NCBI RefSeq assembly: GCF_010681825.2
Contig: NZ_CP066776.1
Location: 1,240,001-1,304,000, forward strand
Reading direction: 5' to 3'
Length of the DNA stretch: 64,000 nt
Origin: Sulfuriroseicoccus oceanibius
GTDB lineage: Bacteria > Verrucomicrobiota > Verrucomicrobiia > Verrucomicrobiales > SLCJ01
The notes beneath the pieces were generated by a model, which was not told where the DNA came from, searched no databases, and worked only from the letters and a program-made list of their open reading frames with translations. Positions 3,543 through 27,492 of the stretch are shown here, piece by piece; the stretch's first letter is position 1; each line of letters begins with the position of its first letter. A program made the position numbers and the translations under genes.

Positions 3543-4598
3543 ATGGCAGCACCCATTCTCATCATTGGAGCCGGACTCAGCGGGTTGGTCGCGGCGTATC
3601 GTTTGCACCAGCAGGGGCGTGAGGTTCGGATATTGGAAGCGCGCGACCGTGCCGGCGGGCGGATCCAGACGCTGCGGGGAAAACGGGACACTCCGATGGA
3701 GCTCGGTGCCACCTGGATTCACCCGCCGCATCTGCGTTTGCGCTCGCTGGTTGATGAACTCGGGCTTGAGTTGTTTCCGCAGTACATGGCTGGGGCGGCG
3801 TTGTATCAGGCGGCGATGAACCATCCGCCGCAGACCTTCGAGATGCCGGGCGATGAGCCGTTCTTCCGCGTGGTCGGCGGGACACAGCGGATCACCGATG
3901 CGTTGCTTGAGCGTCTGCCCGAAGGGTGTGTGCACTATGGGGCTCGGGTGTCGGAGCTACGCACGGGGGCTGATGGTGATGTTGAGCTTCAGCTGAGCGG
4001 GGGCGACCACGTGCTCAAGGCATCGCAGGTAGTGGTGACCTTGCCGCCGCAGCGCTGGGCGGGGGACGTGCGCTTCTCACCGCCGCTGTCCGACGCGCTG
4101 ATAGAGGTGGCGACGGCGACTCACACGTGGATGGCGGATTCGATGAAGTGTGCGGTGGAGTACGAGCGGCCGTGGTGGCGCGAGCGTGGATTGAGTGGTG
4201 CGTTGTTCAGCCAGCAGGGGCCCTTGATCGAATTCATGGACCAGTGTGATTTTGAGAACCAAAAATTCGCGCTGTGTGGGTTCGTCAACCGCGGGCTGAT
4301 TGATGGATTGGAGCGCGAGCAGCAGATCGCGCTGATCGACGCACAACTTAAACAAGCGTTTGGTAGCGACGCGCTGGATTACGTCGGGATCGAGCTCAAA
4401 GCGTGGCAGGGTGAACTTGGAGTTAACGAGGGCTTGGTGCCGCATCAGTTCAATGGGCACCCGGAATTGCAGCGGGGGTATTGGGGCGGGAGGCTTTATT
4501 TTGCGGGGACTGAGACAGCGCACCCTCATGGTGGGTTTATGGAGGGGGCTGTGATTGCCGCCGAGCGGGTGGTCGCGGAACTGGTTTTTGATAGTTGA
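3543..4598 (+). CDS. Flavin monoamine oxidase family protein
   Basis: A 351-residue FAD-dependent amine oxidase. The Rossmann motif IIGAGLSGL is at residues 7-15, followed by ILEARDRAGGRI, the characteristic second motif of the family. ELGATWIHPP matches the substrate-domain GA.WIH element. The C-terminal FAD-binding segment FAGTETAHPHGGFMEGA is near residue 322. It probably oxidises an amine or a related hydride donor and produces H2O2 and an aldehyde or imine. It is shorter than typical monoamine oxidases (about 450) because the substrate domain is compact. The substrate cannot be deduced. Confidence 0.87.
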   Translation: MAAPILIIGAGLSGLVAAYRLHQQGREVRILEARDRAGGRIQTLRGKRDTPMELGATWIHPPHLRLRSLVDELGLELFPQYMAGAALYQAAMNHPPQTFEMPGDEPFFRVVGGTQRITDALLERLPEGCVHYGARVSELRTGADGDVELQLSGGDHVLKASQVVVTLPPQRWAGDVRFSPPLSDALIEVATATHTWMADSMKCAVEYERPWWRERGLSGALFSQQGPLIEFMDQCDFENQKFALCGFVNRGLIDGLEREQQIALIDAQLKQAFGSDALDYVGIELKAWQGELGVNEGLVPHQFNGHPELQRGYWGGRLYFAGTETAHPHGGFMEGAVIAAERVVAELVFDS

Positions 4599-7400: not shown

Positions 7401-7831
7401 CTGCGCTCGGGGTGGGGAGGATTGTCGACAGGAATGTCGACCCACCATCGGCTGGGCATTAGGGGATGGCCACGAAGAGCTCAAAAAGCCACGAGAAAAG
7501 TTGAGGACGGAGCTGATTGCGCAACCTCAGGAGTGAGGTTGGTCCATCGTCTCGCGTGGGGCGGTGGGGAAGGGGGAGGAGGACGGTATTCCTGCCGTCG
7601 GTTGGAAGGGGGAGTGCTCTTTGCGCTCGGGTGGGGAGGATTGTCGACAGGAATGTCGACCCACCAGCGGCTGGGCATTAGGGGATGGCCACGAAGAGCT
7701 CAAAAAGCCACGAGAAAAGGTGAGGACGGAGCTGATTGCGCAACCTCAAGAGTGAGGTTGGTCCATCGTCTCGCGTGGGGCGGTGGAGATGGGGGAGGAG
7801 GACGGTATTCCTGCCGTCTGTGCGGCGGGGA
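7401..7831. repeat. Two-copy tandem composite hairpin repeat, period 219 bp
   Basis: Two nearly identical units lie head to tail; the phrase beginning attgtcgacagg recurs at 7421 and 7640. Each unit carries, in order, a GTCGAC...GTCGAC element, a long conserved segment, the hairpin AACCTCA-RGAG-TGAGGTT followed by GGTCCATCG, and an inverted pair GACGG...CCGTC. ORFs called across it are different frames of the same repeat, so this 660-bp gene gap (7320-7979) appears non-coding. The module order matches the larger array near 25 kb. Confidence 0.85.
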
Positions 7832-12446: not shown

Positions 12447-14363
12447 TCATTCGCCGACATATTTCATCAGGAAAAATGTGTGTCGTGGGTCGTTCGAGAC
12501 GAAGCGTTGGACGAGGGTGAAGTAAGCCGGATTATCGAGCAGATCAAATCCGTCCGGGATGACGACACGGTTGAAACTTTGGTTGCCGTAGCAGATGAAG
12601 AGCGGACGACCGGTTTCGCGGGATTTGGCGATCAGCTGTTCGATTTCATCGCGGGAGCTGATACCTCGAACATCAGGATCGACCATTTCTTCCATGACTT
12701 CTCCGGCGAGTCCATAGGTGGCTGCGAGCGGAGCCACGCCGGAGTCGGTTTCGATCTGGTCCAGCTTGGAGCTGATTTGCGGCAGGGGTTCGTGGACGTG
12801 TTGGAACAGGTTGCTGATCTGGGGGGAGGCGAGCAGGGCGAAGAACAGCACACCGGTGGCAGCACCGAGGATGCGGCGTCCGGCGGATGGTCGCGTGGTC
12901 CAGAAGACGCCCATGCCAAGTGCAAGCGGCAACGGCAGGTAGGCGACAAAGCGCGGGTAGAAGAACATGTCGGCCGCAGCGCTGAGGCCGACGACCAATG
13001 CGGCGCTAACGATCAATCCTAAAGCCAGCCAACCTGCGGTGCGGGTGGCTGGCTTTTTCAGCATCACCCCGATACCTGCGAGGGTGAACAACGCGGAAAG
13101 CGAGGCCCAGACCCAGCCGATGGTTGGGTTGGTGTAGCGGGATTTGAACGTGGTGATCGGGAGGTCGCCACTTACGACAGGAACGTCGAATGGGATGCCG
13201 ATGAGCCAGTTGGACGCGGTGTCGGAGAGGGTTGCCTCGCCGACGCGGAGGTAGTCGGACTCCGAAGGGGGCTTGAGGTCGGTGTATTGTTTGAGTTGGA
13301 TCAGGTTTGGCCCCATGACCTGGAGGAAGAGGCAGGCAGCGACTCCGCTGGTGAGGATGATTTTGGAGAACAGAGGCCAAAGAGGTGTGTGGTCGCGACG
13401 TTTGGCGGCAATTCCTTGGCCGATGACGACAGCCAGCATCGGTAGGATGAGCAGGGCGTTCTGCACCGAGAGCCACATCAGGTAGCTTTGGGCAAAGCCG
13501 AAGAGAGCCCACCATCGCCACTTGCCGGAGCGCACGATGCCGGTGACGGCGTGCAGTGCGACGAGGATGAAGCACATGGTGAGGCCGTAGGAGCGGGCGT
13601 CGACCGACCAGCGGATGGCCCACGGGTGGATGGCGAGGAAGATGGCGGCGAGCAGACCGGCGAGTGGTAGGTTCCAACGCACCAGCAGCCAGCCGATGAG
13701 GAAGATGGATGCGAGCGCGGCCAGGAACGATGGCAGGCGCAGGAAGAATGGGGAGAGCTGCGAGCGGTCGGCGCCGGTGATGGCTTGCCATGCGCTGTGG
13801 GTCAGGCGCGATGGCACCGAGAAGGCGACGTGGTTGGTCGGCTTGCGGTAGTAGAATGCGGTCTCCTCCCACTTGGCGGGGCGGAATTTGGCTTCACCGA
13901 AGAGCGGATCCTTTTTGTCAAAGCGGTGGTAGCCGTTGACTCGTTGGGCGTTGTGGAGCTCGTCGTGCCAAAGTCCGCCGGTGGCGGTTTGGTAGCGGAG
14001 CGCACCGCCGAGAGCGACGACCAGAGCGAGCGCGATCCAGATCCAACGCGGGGTTGTTTTGGTGGATGCGGTGGCGGGTGCTGTGCCTCGGCGATGCCAC
14101 AGCGGGAGAGTGAGCGCGAGGAGGGCGCAGATGCCGGCGTTGATCCAGGCGAAGAGATGAGTCCCCCAGCGGGCGTAGTCACGGGTTTTTGCCCATTCGC
14201 CGGCGTTCCATTTCTCCTGAATGGCTGTGAGGGATTTGGCCGGATCCTCAGGCACGCCTTGGAGCCAGAGGAAAAACACAGTCAACGCACCGAGCACGCA
14301 CCAAAGCCAGAAGCGCTCGGACTTTTGGAGTGTTCGGAATCGGTTGATGAGCTCGGTGGTCAT
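12447..14363 (-). CDS. Multi-pass glycosyltransferase family 39-type protein
   Basis: A 638-residue membrane protein with about eleven or twelve hydrophobic helices. After the first helix (about 18-35) and a second pair near 70-120, a periplasmic loop contains GGLWHDELHNA, in which Asp134-Glu135 match the catalytic acidic pair of ArnT/PMT-like (GT-C) glycosyltransferases. A C-terminal soluble domain starts at about residue 500. Such enzymes move sugars from polyprenyl-phosphate donors to lipid or protein acceptors at the outer face of the inner membrane. The acceptor is unknown. It is the first gene of an apparent operon with lysA. Confidence 0.78.
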   Translation of the reverse strand: MTTELINRFRTLQKSERFWLWCVLGALTVFFLWLQGVPEDPAKSLTAIQEKWNAGEWAKTRDYARWGTHLFAWINAGICALLALTLPLWHRRGTAPATASTKTTPRWIWIALALVVALGGALRYQTATGGLWHDELHNAQRVNGYHRFDKKDPLFGEAKFRPAKWEETAFYYRKPTNHVAFSVPSRLTHSAWQAITGADRSQLSPFFLRLPSFLAALASIFLIGWLLVRWNLPLAGLLAAIFLAIHPWAIRWSVDARSYGLTMCFILVALHAVTGIVRSGKWRWWALFGFAQSYLMWLSVQNALLILPMLAVVIGQGIAAKRRDHTPLWPLFSKIILTSGVAACLFLQVMGPNLIQLKQYTDLKPPSESDYLRVGEATLSDTASNWLIGIPFDVPVVSGDLPITTFKSRYTNPTIGWVWASLSALFTLAGIGVMLKKPATRTAGWLALGLIVSAALVVGLSAAADMFFYPRFVAYLPLPLALGMGVFWTTRPSAGRRILGAATGVLFFALLASPQISNLFQHVHEPLPQISSKLDQIETDSGVAPLAATYGLAGEVMEEMVDPDVRGISSRDEIEQLIAKSRETGRPLFICYGNQSFNRVVIPDGFDLLDNPAYFTLVQRFVSNDPRHTFFLMKYVGE

Positions 14364-23006: not shown

Positions 23007-23038
23007 CCATGGGAGAATGCCTAGTTTTTCTCCCATGG
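23007..23038 (+). promoter_or_regulatory. Perfect inverted repeat enclosing the fumarase start codon
   Basis: CCATGGGAGAA and TTCTCCCATGG form an 11-bp perfect stem with a 10-base loop. The right arm contains the chosen fumarase ATG (23035), and the left arm holds a purine-rich GGGAG. In mRNA this hairpin would bury the initiation site, which suggests translational control. It could also contribute to argD transcript ending, but no T-run follows the right arm. Confidence 0.6.
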
Positions 23039-24666
23039 CTGACAAACCCTTTCATTACCAAGCTCCGTTTCCTCTCGGTCCGGACAAGACCGAGTACGAA
23101 TGCATCTCGACTGATTATGTCTCGACCATCGACTGCTGTGGTCGCGAGATGTTGAAAGTTGAGCCGGAGGCACTGACGCTTCTGGCCAACGCCGCATCGA
23201 AGGCAATTTCGTTCACTCTGCGTCCGTCGCACCTCAAGCAGGTCGCCGCCATCCTCGACGATGAAGAGGCGACCGATAACGACCGCATGGTGGCTCTCAA
23301 TTTGCTGCGCAATGCCGAGATCGCCGCACGCGGTATCCTCCCTGCCTGCCAAGACACCGGCACCGCAATCGTGATGGGCAAAAAAGGCCAGTCTGTGTGG
23401 ACCGGAGCCGACGATGCTGAGTTTCTCTCGAAAGGGATCTACAAGACCTACACCGAGGAGAACCTGCGCTACTCGCAGACCGTGCCGTTGACCATGTTCG
23501 AAGAGACGAACTCGCGCACGAACCTGCCGGCCCAGATCGATCTCTACGCGACCAATAGCGACGAGTATTCTTTCCTGTTCGTGAACAAGGGCGGTGGATC
23601 CGCTAACAAGACATTCCTCTATCAAGAGACCAAGGCGCTGCTCAATCCGAAGCGCCTGCGTGAGTTTGCGATTGAGAAGTTCCGTACACTGGGCACGTCG
23701 GCCTGCCCGCCTTACCACATTGCGTTGGTGATCGGTGGCACGTCCGCCGAGACCACGATGAAGACCGTGAAGTTGGCATCGACCCGTTACTACGATGAAC
23801 TGCCAACCGAGGGCAACGAGCACGGTCAGGCATTCCGCGACGTGGAGATGGAGAAAGAGTTGCTGCAGGCGGCGCGCGAGATCGGAATTGGTGCGCAGTT
23901 TGGCGGCAAGTACTTCGCGTTGGATATTCGGGTGATCCGATTGCCGCGTCACGGTGCTTCTTGTCCGGTGGGTCTTGGCGTTTCGTGCTCGGCCGACCGT
24001 CAGGCGAAGGCGAAGATCACCAAAGACGGGATCTTCCTGGAGAAGCTGGAGAAGAACCCAGGCCAGTACATCCCTGAGAAGTACAAGGATTGGAAGTTCA
24101 AGGGCGTTAAGATTGACCTCAACGAGGGCATGGCGAAGACGCTCGAGACCTTGAGTAAGTACCCGGTGACCACTCCGGTGGCGCTGAATGGCACGATCAT
24201 CGTGGCGCGTGACATTGCCCACGCCAAGCTGCGTGAGGTGTTGCAGGAGACCGGTGAGCTGCCGCAATACATCAAGGACTATCCGGTTTACTATGCCGGT
24301 CCTGCCAAGACACCGGAAGGTCTGCCGTCGGGATCGTTCGGGCCGACGACAGCCGGCCGTATGGACGGATACGTTGATGAGTTCCAGGCTGCTGGTGGAT
24401 CGATGGTGATGCTCGCCAAGGGCAACCGCTCCCAGCAGGTGACCGACGCGTGTAAGAAGCACGGTGGGTTCTATCTTGGGTCGATCGGTGGCCCGGCTGC
24501 GTTGCTCGCCCAGAACCACATCAAGAGTGTGGAAGTGGTGGAGTGGCCGGAGCTCGGCATGGAAGCTGTGTGGAAGATCGAAGTCGAGGACTTCCCTGCG
24601 TTCATCCTGGTGGATGACAAGGGCAACGACTTCTTCGAGCAGATCAACCAGTGCCCAATTTGTTGA
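23035..24666 (+). CDS. fumA: Fumarate hydratase, class I (iron-sulfur)
   Basis: A 543-residue class I fumarase interconverting fumarate and malate. The cluster cysteines are in [22 protein letters not shown] and [10 protein letters not shown]. Other class I markers are [50 protein letters not shown] and KNRSQQ-type [11 protein letters not shown]. The start at [14 protein letters not shown] is chosen because it lines up with the start of enterobacterial FumA/FumB as I remember them; the ATG 18 bases upstream is too close to the purine-rich GGGAG. The protein is single-chain, not the split alpha/beta form. Overall likeness to enterobacterial FumA is striking. Confidence 0.95.
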
Positions 24667-24692
24667 TTGGAGCTGACGTTTAGTTTGTCAGG

Positions 24693-24731
24693 GCCGCCGC
24701 GTTGGATTTGATCCGGCGCGGCGGCTTTTTT
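24693..24731 (+). terminator. Rho-independent terminator after fumA
   Basis: A 9-bp GC stem (GCCGCCGCG / CGCGGCGGC) is followed by TTTTTT, 27 bp past the stop codon. Confidence 0.93.
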
Positions 24732-24834
24732 GTGGATGGGGGGAGACGGAGCGTGCCCGCTGAGCTCCCTTGTGAGCGTTTTTGGACAGGATTGACATGA
24801 TTGACGGGATTTTTGAATGGGAGGGAGGCATGGA

Positions 24835-25905
24835 GGTTCGACGTCCTCGTCGACAATAGGGCGGAGAGGGTGAGCGGAGTCTCGCGTTCAACCTCAAGAG
24901 TGAGGTTGCTCCATCGACGCTCGTATGGCGATGCGGAGCGCTGGAGGAACGGCAGTCTTGCCGTCTGTGAGGTTGGTGATGGGCAGTGGTCGCTACGCTC
25001 CGTGGGGATGGTGGCTGGATTGGAAACCGGCGGTCCGAGGGGCGTTGCGTGATGCGGAGGGTGCATGGAGGTTCGACGTCCTCGTCGACAATAGGGAGAG
25101 GGTGATCGGAGTCTCGCGTTCAACCTCAAGAGTGAGGTTGCTCCATCGACGCTCGTATGGCGGTGCGGAGTGCTGTTGGGACGGCAGTCTTGCCGTCTGT
25201 GAGGTTGGTGATGGGCAGTGGTCGCTACGCTCCGTGGGGATGGAGGGCGGATTGGAAAGCGGCGGTCCGAGGGGCGTTGCGTGATGCGGAGGGTGCATGG
25301 AGGTTCGACGTCCTCGTCGACAATAGGGCGGGGAGGGGGGCGGAGTCTCGCGTTCAACCTCAAGAGTGAGGTTGCTCCATCGACGCTCGTATGATGATGC
25401 GGAGCGCTGGAGGAACGGCAGTCTTGCCGTCTGTGAGGTTGGTGATGGGCAGTGGTCGCTATGCTCCGTGGGGATTGGTGGCCGGATTGGAAACCGGCGG
25501 TCCGAGGGGCGTTGCGTGATGCGGCGGGGGCGTGGAGGTTCGACGTCCTCGTCGACAATAGGGAGGAGAGGGGGAGCGGAGTCTCGCGTTCAACCTCAAG
25601 AGTGAGGTTGCTCCATCGACGCTCGTATGATGATGAGGAGCGCTGGTGGGACGGCAGTCTTGCCGTCTGTGAGGTTGGTGATGGGCAGTGGTCGCTACGC
25701 TCCGTGGGGATGGAGGCCGGATTGGAAACCGGCGGTCCGAGGGGCGTTGCGTGATGCGGAGGGTGCATGGAGGTTCGACGTCCTCGTCGACAATAGGGAG
25801 GGGGGGGAGCGGAGTCTTGCGTTCAACCTCAAGAGTGAGGTTGCTCCATCGACGCTCGTATGGCGATGCGGAGCGCTGGAGGGACGGCAGTCTTGCCGTC
25901 TGGGC
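24835..25905. repeat. Tandem array of about 4.6 hairpin-rich units of 235 bp
   Basis: Unit starts, taken at ggttcgacgtcctcgtcgac, fall at 24835, 25070, 25302, 25537 and 25772 (spacings 235, 232, 235, 235). Each unit contains four short inverted repeats: TCGAC-GTCCTC-GTCGA, AACCTCA-AGAG-TGAGGTT followed by GCTCCATCG, ACGGCA-GTCT-TGCCGT, and a CCGG...CCGG element near cggtccgagg. Spacing is not a multiple of three, so apparent long ORFs change frame at every unit and are not genes. The array occupies most of the gap 24667-26058; nothing else coding is seen there. Confidence 0.92.
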
Positions 25906-25989: not shown

Positions 25990-26033
25990 AAAAACAAAGC
26001 CGCCCGCGCCATCGGGTGATGACGCGGGCGGCT
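25990..26033 (-). terminator. Rho-independent terminator after pyk
   Basis: An 11-bp stem (AGCCGCCCGCG / CGCGGGCGGCT). Read on the minus strand it is followed by TTGTTTTTGGG, 26 bp past the pyk stop. Confidence 0.9.
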
Positions 26034-26058: not shown

Positions 26059-27492
26059 TTACGCTTCGTAGAGGCGGATCGAGTCGGTGACGTACTCCTC
26101 TTGGAGGATGTCGGAAACGATCACCAGAGGCTCGCCGGCTTTCACGAGGCCCTTGGCCTTGAGGTAGGTGATGGCGTGGCGGATGAGGTCCTTCGCGTTG
26201 CTAGGGAACTCGATGTTGAATGCTTTCACGCCGCGCGAGAGAGCGAGGCTACGGCAGACCTGGTCGTCTTCCGAGAATGCGTAGATCGGCGCCTTGTGAG
26301 GGCGGAACGAGGACAGGTGCTGGGCCATCACACCGCGGCGGGTGAAGACGATGAGGCTGCTGTTGTCGATGTCGTTGGCCATGGCGACCGCAGACTTGCA
26401 GGTGAGTTGCTTGGTGCTGCCGGTTGGGCGGACGAACTCCTCGAACCCTGCGCCACCGGAGCGCTCGATTCGGCGGGAGATGCGGTCGAGCACCTCGAGG
26501 CACTTGAGTGGGTAGCGTCCGACCGAGCTTTCACCCGAGAGCATCACGGCGTCGGCCTGTTCGAAGACGGCGTTTGCGACGTCGGTGACTTCTGCGCGGG
26601 TTGGGCTTGGGTTTTCGATCATGCTCTCGAGCATGTGGGTGGCGACGATGACGCGCTTACCAGCTGCGTGGCACTTTTTGACGATGCTTCGCTGGATGAT
26701 TGGGAGCTCTTCGTAATCGACTTCGATACCGAGGTCACCACGGGCCACCATGACGGCGTCGGTTTCTTCGATGATGGCATTGATGTTACGGACGGCTTCC
26801 TGGTCTTCGATTTTGGCGACGATGCGTGGGGACGAGCTGCGCTCGGCCATGAATGCGCGCACTTCGCGGACGTGTTCCGCGCCGCGGACGAACGAGATCG
26901 CGATGAAGTCGAGGTTGAGGGTGGCTGCGAGGGTGGCGTCGTCGCGGTCCTTGTCGGTCATGGCAGGCAGGTTGAGCACGGTGCCTGGCAGGTTGATGTG
27001 ACGGCGCGAGGTGATTTCACCCTGGGTGAGAACTTCGCAGATGATGTTGGTCTCGGTCTTCGAGAGGATCTTGAAGAGGAGCATGCCGTTGTCGACGACG
27101 ATGGTGCTGCCTGCTTCCACGTCCTTTGGCAGGTCGTCGTAGTTGACTGTGGTGCTCTTCTCGAGTGTTGGTGCTGCGTCCTTGGTGCGGATCTCAATTT
27201 GATCACCAACGGCGAGCTGGATTGGCTCTGCGAGGTCACCGGTGCGGATGGATGGGCCCTGAAGGTCCATCAGGATCGCAGGGTGGAGATTCTTCTTGGA
27301 GGCCACGTTGCGGATGCGCTCAACGACGGTGCGGACCCATTCGTGACGGCCGTGGCTCATGTTGAGGCGGAAAACGTTGGCACCTGCGTCGAGCAGCTTA
27401 CCGAGCATTTCCTCGGAATCAGTAGCAGGTCCGAGAGTGACGGTGAATTTCGTCTTCTTCGGGATGATGGTGGTTGTCGATGGTTCGGTCAT
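26059..27492 (-). CDS. pyk: Pyruvate kinase
   Basis: A 477-residue enzyme making pyruvate and ATP from phosphoenolpyruvate. The (beta/alpha)8 barrel is interrupted by the B domain. Visible active-site elements are VFRLNMSHG (Arg, Asn and Ser ligands), LMDLQGPSIRTG, IAISFVRG, IVAKIEDQEA (catalytic Lys and metal-binding Glu), VMVARGDLGIEV, VATHMLESM and ADAVMLSGESSVGRYP. The usual Thr after the first-domain Asp (DTKGPEIR in E. coli) is replaced by Leu (DLQGPSIR). The C-terminal allosteric-type domain is present. The start lies 25 bp after the glgX stop, so glycogen debranching and lower glycolysis are probably co-expressed. Confidence 0.94.
   Translation of the reverse strand: MTEPSTTTIIPKKTKFTVTLGPATDSEEMLGKLLDAGANVFRLNMSHGRHEWVRTVVERIRNVASKKNLHPAILMDLQGPSIRTGDLAEPIQLAVGDQIEIRTKDAAPTLEKSTTVNYDDLPKDVEAGSTIVVDNGMLLFKILSKTETNIICEVLTQGEITSRRHINLPGTVLNLPAMTDKDRDDATLAATLNLDFIAISFVRGAEHVREVRAFMAERSSSPRIVAKIEDQEAVRNINAIIEETDAVMVARGDLGIEVDYEELPIIQRSIVKKCHAAGKRVIVATHMLESMIENPSPTRAEVTDVANAVFEQADAVMLSGESSVGRYPLKCLEVLDRISRRIERSGGAGFEEFVRPTGSTKQLTCKSAVAMANDIDNSSLIVFTRRGVMAQHLSSFRPHKAPIYAFSEDDQVCRSLALSRGVKAFNIEFPSNAKDLIRHAITYLKAKGLVKAGEPLVIVSDILQEEYVTDSIRLYEA

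Follow-up and report, generated by a model that had tools for sequence, protein, structure and literature searches.

The tandem array between the fumarate hydratase (fumA) and pyruvate kinase (pyk) genes is very probably a hybrid BIME. Its module contains at least three REPs of two RAYT-linked types (H1 being one and H2/H3 the other), and 4.6 copies of this module follow one another head to tail in the convergent gap.

Structure of the array

We analyzed a window of 64 kb (positions 1240001-1304000 of an assembly that consists of a single contig of 3.5 Mb); array coordinates refer to the window. TRF identified a tandem array at 24820-25902, with a period of 232, 4.6 copies, and 93% match. An earlier note on this DNA described five units with spacings of 235, 232, 235, and 235 bp, and those spacings are exact. 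The units start at 24830, 25065, 25297, 25532, and 25767; four of them are 232-235 bp long, and the fifth is a partial unit of 136 bp that ends after H3. The units had also been described as highly similar, and their pairwise identity is indeed 92-96%. There is support for the note's view that the long ORFs spanning the array are artefacts: the spacing is not a multiple of three, and there is no coding score there.

The differences between units are scattered substitutions and short indels. Together with the single-contig assembly, this speaks against a collapse or duplication introduced by the assembly, and we consider the five-fold array to be confirmed as real. The hairpin segments are less variable than the spacers (differences fall in 4 of 90 hairpin columns and in 23 of 146 spacer columns; Fisher P = 0.01).

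The features of the array and its neighborhood are:

7402-7818: second array in the window with the same REP family, 1.9 copies of 219 bp
23017-24666, plus strand: fumarate hydratase gene (fumA), left neighbor, convergent
24690-24731, plus strand: intrinsic terminator of fumA (stem of -32.6 kcal/mol, then T6)
24820-25902: whole tandem array (putative hybrid BIME), with units at 24830-25064, 25065-25296, 25297-25531, and 25532-25766, and the partial fifth unit at 25767-25902
24831-24854, plus strand: H1 REP of unit 1, TGGAG-G-TTCGACG-TCCT-CGTCGAC
25066-25089, 25298-25321, 25533-25556, and 25768-25791, plus strand: other copies of H1
24889-24913, minus strand: H2 REP of unit 1, on the minus strand TGGAG-C-AACCTCA-CTCT-TGAGGTT-G
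25121-25145, 25355-25379, 25591-25615, and 25824-25848, minus strand: other copies of H2
24942-24965, plus strand: H3 REP of unit 1, TGGAG-G-AACGGCA-GTCT-TGCCGTC
25174-25197 (unit 2, foot changed to TGTTG), 25408-25431, 25644-25667, and 25877-25900, plus strand: other copies of H3
25017-25036, plus strand: H4, an imperfect hairpin around GCCGGATTGGAAACCGGC, with copies at 25249-25268, 25484-25503, and 25719-25738; missing from unit 5
25998-26033, minus strand: intrinsic terminator of pyk
26059-27492, minus strand: pyruvate kinase gene (pyk), right neighbor, convergent

Four hairpins per unit had been proposed. H1, H2, and H3 are robust and are found in all five units (z = -2.6, -4.6, and -2.1 for DNA folding relative to shuffled sequences). 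H4 is weaker (z = -1.9), is present in just four units, and is possibly a decayed REP. H1, H2 (read on the minus strand), and H3 have the same geometry: TGGAG, one base, a 7-bp stem, and a 4-nt loop that is mostly pyrimidine. The feet of H2 and H3 point inwards and are 28-31 bp apart. This alternation of H1 (plus), H2 (minus), and H3 (plus), in a module that is repeated head to tail, is the arrangement of a BIME. (The smaller array at 7402-7818 has two copies, with the stems GTCGACA and AACCTCA.)

The array lies in the convergent gap between the terminators of fumA and pyk. The note had raised the possibility of a structured noncoding RNA array, in which transcripts of the repeats would function through their hairpins. 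Compensated stems (see below) would fit this idea, as would the lower variability of the hairpin segments. But a search of Rfam gave no match in the array (the only hit was a sub-threshold chance hit inside pyk), there are intrinsic terminators on both sides, and we found no sigma-70-type promoter. Also, hairpins are found on either strand, they are DNA elements whose tag is of a transposase type, transposase genes are flanked by these same hairpins, and the REP arrays elsewhere in the genome have REP-type hairpins in common but different units. We consider an RNA array to be highly improbable.

We searched one congener for the same locus. The fumA/pyk neighborhood is identical in gene order, and the gap lacks any such hairpin; it holds a metallophosphatase-like ORF (assigned by eye). 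So, either the array arose after the species split or it was lost in the congener. A search of a plasmid collection with one unit gave no match.

The array might instead be a set of protein-binding sites with a host function (for gyrase, IHF, or nucleoid proteins, of the BIME-2 kind) that is kept by selection. E. coli BIMEs provide a precedent (PMC2817692), and the preference for convergent gaps, where positive supercoils meet, would suit such a role, but the same gap in the congener does without the array. We think this explanation is unlikely. It does not exclude a hybrid BIME, and the note's broader suggestion of a protein-binding array would be compatible with one (the protein could be a RAYT or, from the likeness to E. 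coli BIMEs, possibly gyrase or IHF).

The REP family across the genome

The hairpins of the array belong to a dispersed family. Among 550 hairpins in 308 kb, collected with no tag assumed, ATGGA and TGGAG were the most over-represented leading motifs. TGG preceded the exact 6-7-4-7 hairpin geometry at a rate of 94.5 per 10,000, versus a mean of 5.5, or about 17-fold the mean triplet rate. (These regions were selected for Y1 genes or for likeness to the window's array, so the densities are biased and the rate should not be read as a genome-wide mean.) Six regions picked irrespective of repeats contained 1 copy in 114 kb.

The stems are compensated. When sites were picked by foot and loop only, 68 of 77 had all seven Watson-Crick pairs, and scrambled feet yielded 0 or 1 sites. 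(This selection replaces a covariation count on the model alignment, which was partly circular because its rows were chosen for pairing.) The stem variants include AACCTCA, AACGACA, TACGGCA, TACCACA, GACGGCA, GTCGACA, TTCGACG, and GACGGTG, and both sides of the stem co-vary. Either palindrome-correcting repair or selection for a substrate that can fold could explain this.

The note had proposed looking for other copies in the genome, and a covariance-model search, in which every scored candidate was a match, found at least 150 REP copies genome-wide. Genome-wide there are 69 occurrences of the H3 core, ACGGCA-N4-TGCCGT, and 0 of the control. Nearly all of the sampled copies (221 of 225) are outside genes: convergent gaps hold 104 of them, co-directional gaps 91, and divergent gaps 24. 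For this count, genes were called by a home-made coding score that was trained on long ORFs, and copies in the same array were counted separately. The commonest arrangement of neighboring REPs is a pair with feet inwards, 20-30 bp apart. The sampled stretches contain 17 arrays with a period of at least 100 (two of them in the window); 15 of these carry REPs, and their units are 129-397 bp.

These elements have the features of REPs: they are short palindromes, one end of which carries a conserved, unpaired foot, there are over 100 dispersed copies, they are extragenic, and they flank a RAYT gene in the same genome. The foot reads TGGAG, TGGAC, or TGGTG, and is not the foot of the CGTC superfamily. 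Nor is it that of the GT[AG]G superfamily, as only 4 of the 126 GGAG hairpins that flank RAYTs have GT[AG]G. (Elsewhere, some copies of the H3 type have TGGTGG, which contains GTGG.)

A MITE (a non-autonomous transposon) or a satellite unrelated to RAYTs, with hairpins that arose by chance, would also be tandem, lineage-specific, and missing at the congener's locus. However, the REPs recur across the genome without the rest of the unit, and they lie at the borders of RAYT genes. This makes a MITE or satellite exceedingly improbable.

RAYT genes in this genome

The note reported no transposase gene in the window, and our Y1 transposase search of all 64 kb likewise gave no hit; such genes are present elsewhere in the genome. 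Two of them are:

3235196-3235798: RAYT1, with a match to Y1_Tnp; flanked on both sides by REPs of the H1 and GACGGTG types (TGGAGGTTCGACGTCCCCGTCGAC and TGGAGTGACGGTGTCCCCACCGTC)
539523-540122 (13524-14126 of stretch L129): RAYT2, found with RAYT1 as the query and missed by the Pfam search

The H1 hairpin that flanks RAYT1 has the loop TCCC. RAYT2 lies directly after a 3.6-copy array (129-bp unit) of REPs that have a TGGA(C/G) foot and a CTCC loop, and one more copy is downstream; these REPs are of the H2 type, with other stems. The H3 type itself has no RAYT next to it. That the hairpins are REP elements that flank RAYT genes in the same genome fits the note's other suggestion, a mobilized hairpin family.

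RAYT1's best relative of solved structure is E. coli TnpAREP (PDB 4ER8). RAYT1 has the residues expected of a RAYT/TnpAREP: NHVH (with both HUH histidines), IWQ (W94 and Q95), R104, and the tyrosine (Y115). RAYT2 is 48% identical to RAYT1, and its HUH motif is NHVR, with arginine in place of the second histidine. This is the only such case among 62 aligned sequences, and RAYT2 may be inactive. The nearest relatives of this genome's RAYT are from Akkermansiaceae and Verrucomicrobiaceae.

We also made further observations on Y1 genes in this genome. A further one (L009, at 3492522-3492863) is flanked by CCCACGGC-N3-GCCGTGGG hairpins, some with a GTAG or ATAG foot, and appears to be a classical GTAG REPtron. 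L011 and L013 (3231613 and 3235262) are two distinct Y1 genes about 3.6 kb apart, with distinct flanking hairpins. L014 and L015 (59252 and 2943874) are long ORFs, of 428 and 411 amino acids, with weak matches to Y1_Tnp; a GACGGCA-type hairpin is near L014.

RAYT homologs in other species

The association between RAYTs and GGAG hairpins extends to other species. First, among 31 homologs, nearly all from Verrucomicrobiota, most RAYT genes have GGAG-footed hairpins within about 100 bp, and some of these are in short tandem runs. Second, at 29 further RAYT loci (which may have taxa in common with the first set), GGAG is the top tetranucleotide before hairpins, with 72 in 17.4 kb near the genes versus 13 in 46.4 kb far from them (25 of 29 loci). 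By a stricter count, 43 of the 60 loci in both sets have at least one GGAG hairpin. The consensus foot is AAGGAG, with TTCC, TCT, TTC, or CTCC as the loop. The exact TGG geometry gave few hits near these RAYTs, because the foot there is mostly AAGGAG; it was the any-foot repeat of the search that gave the signal.

Third, in 113 genomes of the order we counted 1887 occurrences of the pattern GGAGNNNNNNCANTCYTG, versus 204 of its reversal, and the highest counts per genome are 217, 134, 124 (in the genome studied here), and 107. Genomes of the order with a relative of RAYT1 carry more GGAG-hairpin cores (P = 7e-6, uncorrected for genome size or kinship).

A much tighter tandem form is present in an Akkermansiaceae MAG (L044, about 4001-4597), in which seven GGAG hairpins with a spacing of 38 bp precede a RAYT gene and four with a spacing of 26 bp follow it.

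A proposed mechanism

Published work has shown that TnpAREP cleaves REPs near the foot when they are single-stranded and that cleavage can be guided by the foot (PMC8266576, PMC6006769). In our proposal, each REP is a hairpin of 24 nt, and its GGAG-type foot (TGGAG in this array) would let a cognate Y1 HUH transposase (RAYT/TnpAREP) recognize it in single-stranded DNA. The RAYT would cleave and rejoin near the foot, and so disperse REPs into intergenic gaps. Under the TnpAREP model, RAYT1 would be the processor of H1. RAYT2, with its altered HUH motif, may or may not process H2 and H3. Cleavage, RAYT-driven mobilization, and the strand used are all inferred from published work on TnpAREP.

The module would then have been multiplied in the fumA/pyk gap, most likely through slippage during replication or through unequal recombination. 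REP ends show no excess of array ends (9 of 30 are within 15 bp, where 28% are expected) and so give no direct sign that a RAYT made the arrays; we therefore prefer recombination or slippage as the amplifier, with moderate confidence. We had also considered that RAYT cleavage might set the borders of arrays, which the same comparison does not support.

GGAG, the foot, is the exact reverse complement of the loop CTCC. It is conceivable, but quite doubtful, that this is a GGAG-footed RAYT/REP class of Verrucomicrobiota with a changed guide, in which GGAG pairs with the CTCC loop in the folded REP, and that the H2-type family is served in trans. If so, pairing of foot and loop would be a mode of recognition as yet undescribed among GTAG REPs, and the family of the H2 type would have expanded even though its linked RAYT lost an HUH histidine.

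Comparison with known REP systems

REP clusters are known in other bacteria; the apparent novelty in Verrucomicrobiota is an (AA/AT)GGAG tag, which is outside of GTAG, GTGG, CGTC, and CnGA, the feet described in the papers cited here. The GGAG foot is not mentioned by Di Nocera et al. 2013 (PMC3733652) or Quentin et al. 2018 (PMC6006769) and is not among the feet of Nunvar et al. 2010 (PMC2817692), and our search of openly licensed papers found none that joins RAYT, REP, and GGAG. The REP/RAYT system thereby gains a class of foot that detection rules based on GT[AG]G would miss. Cores of GGAG hairpins exceed 100 copies in several genomes of the order. One small genome also offers many tandem BIMEs, two RAYTs of the same clade (one intact and one with a changed HUH motif), and, in the apparent GTAG-type REPtron, an internal comparison for the specificity of guide sequences.

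The GTAG and CGTC superfamilies (PMC3733652) resemble the family described here in that they are palindromes of 20-40 bp, mostly extragenic, with a fixed foot at one end. They are also associated with RAYTs, form dimers with feet inside, and include singletons or dimers that are tandemly repeated with flanking DNA. GTGG elements of another member of the Verrucomicrobia, Opitutus terrae, belong to these superfamilies. Here, in contrast, the foot is GGAG preceded by AA or AT, and the tetraloops are CTCC, TTCC, TCCC, and CTCT. Some REPs from Xanthomonas and Pseudomonas read GTAGGAG or GTGGGAG before the stem (PMC2817692), so loss of the GT from such a layout may have left the GGAG foot behind.

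As for the transposases, TnpAREP subclasses 2.2-2.8 and class 3 (PMC6006769), as well as 4ER8, also have HUH and tyrosine along with W94, Q95, and R104. As in subclasses 2.5 and 2.7, E100 is replaced by D and, in RAYT1, H101 by R. Foot plus stem is 12-13 nt here and 10-13 nt in subclass 2.5. Those classes have GT[AG]G or CnGA feet, unlike the GGAG foot here.

The hybrid BIMEs of Stenotrophomonas maltophilia (PMC2817692) differ from this array in having GTAG or GTGG as the foot rather than GGAG and in belonging to a different phylum. Like the array, they are built from head-to-tail modules in which one BIME combines the REPs of two RAYTs, their stems have complementary changes, and one RAYT gene adjoins a BIME.
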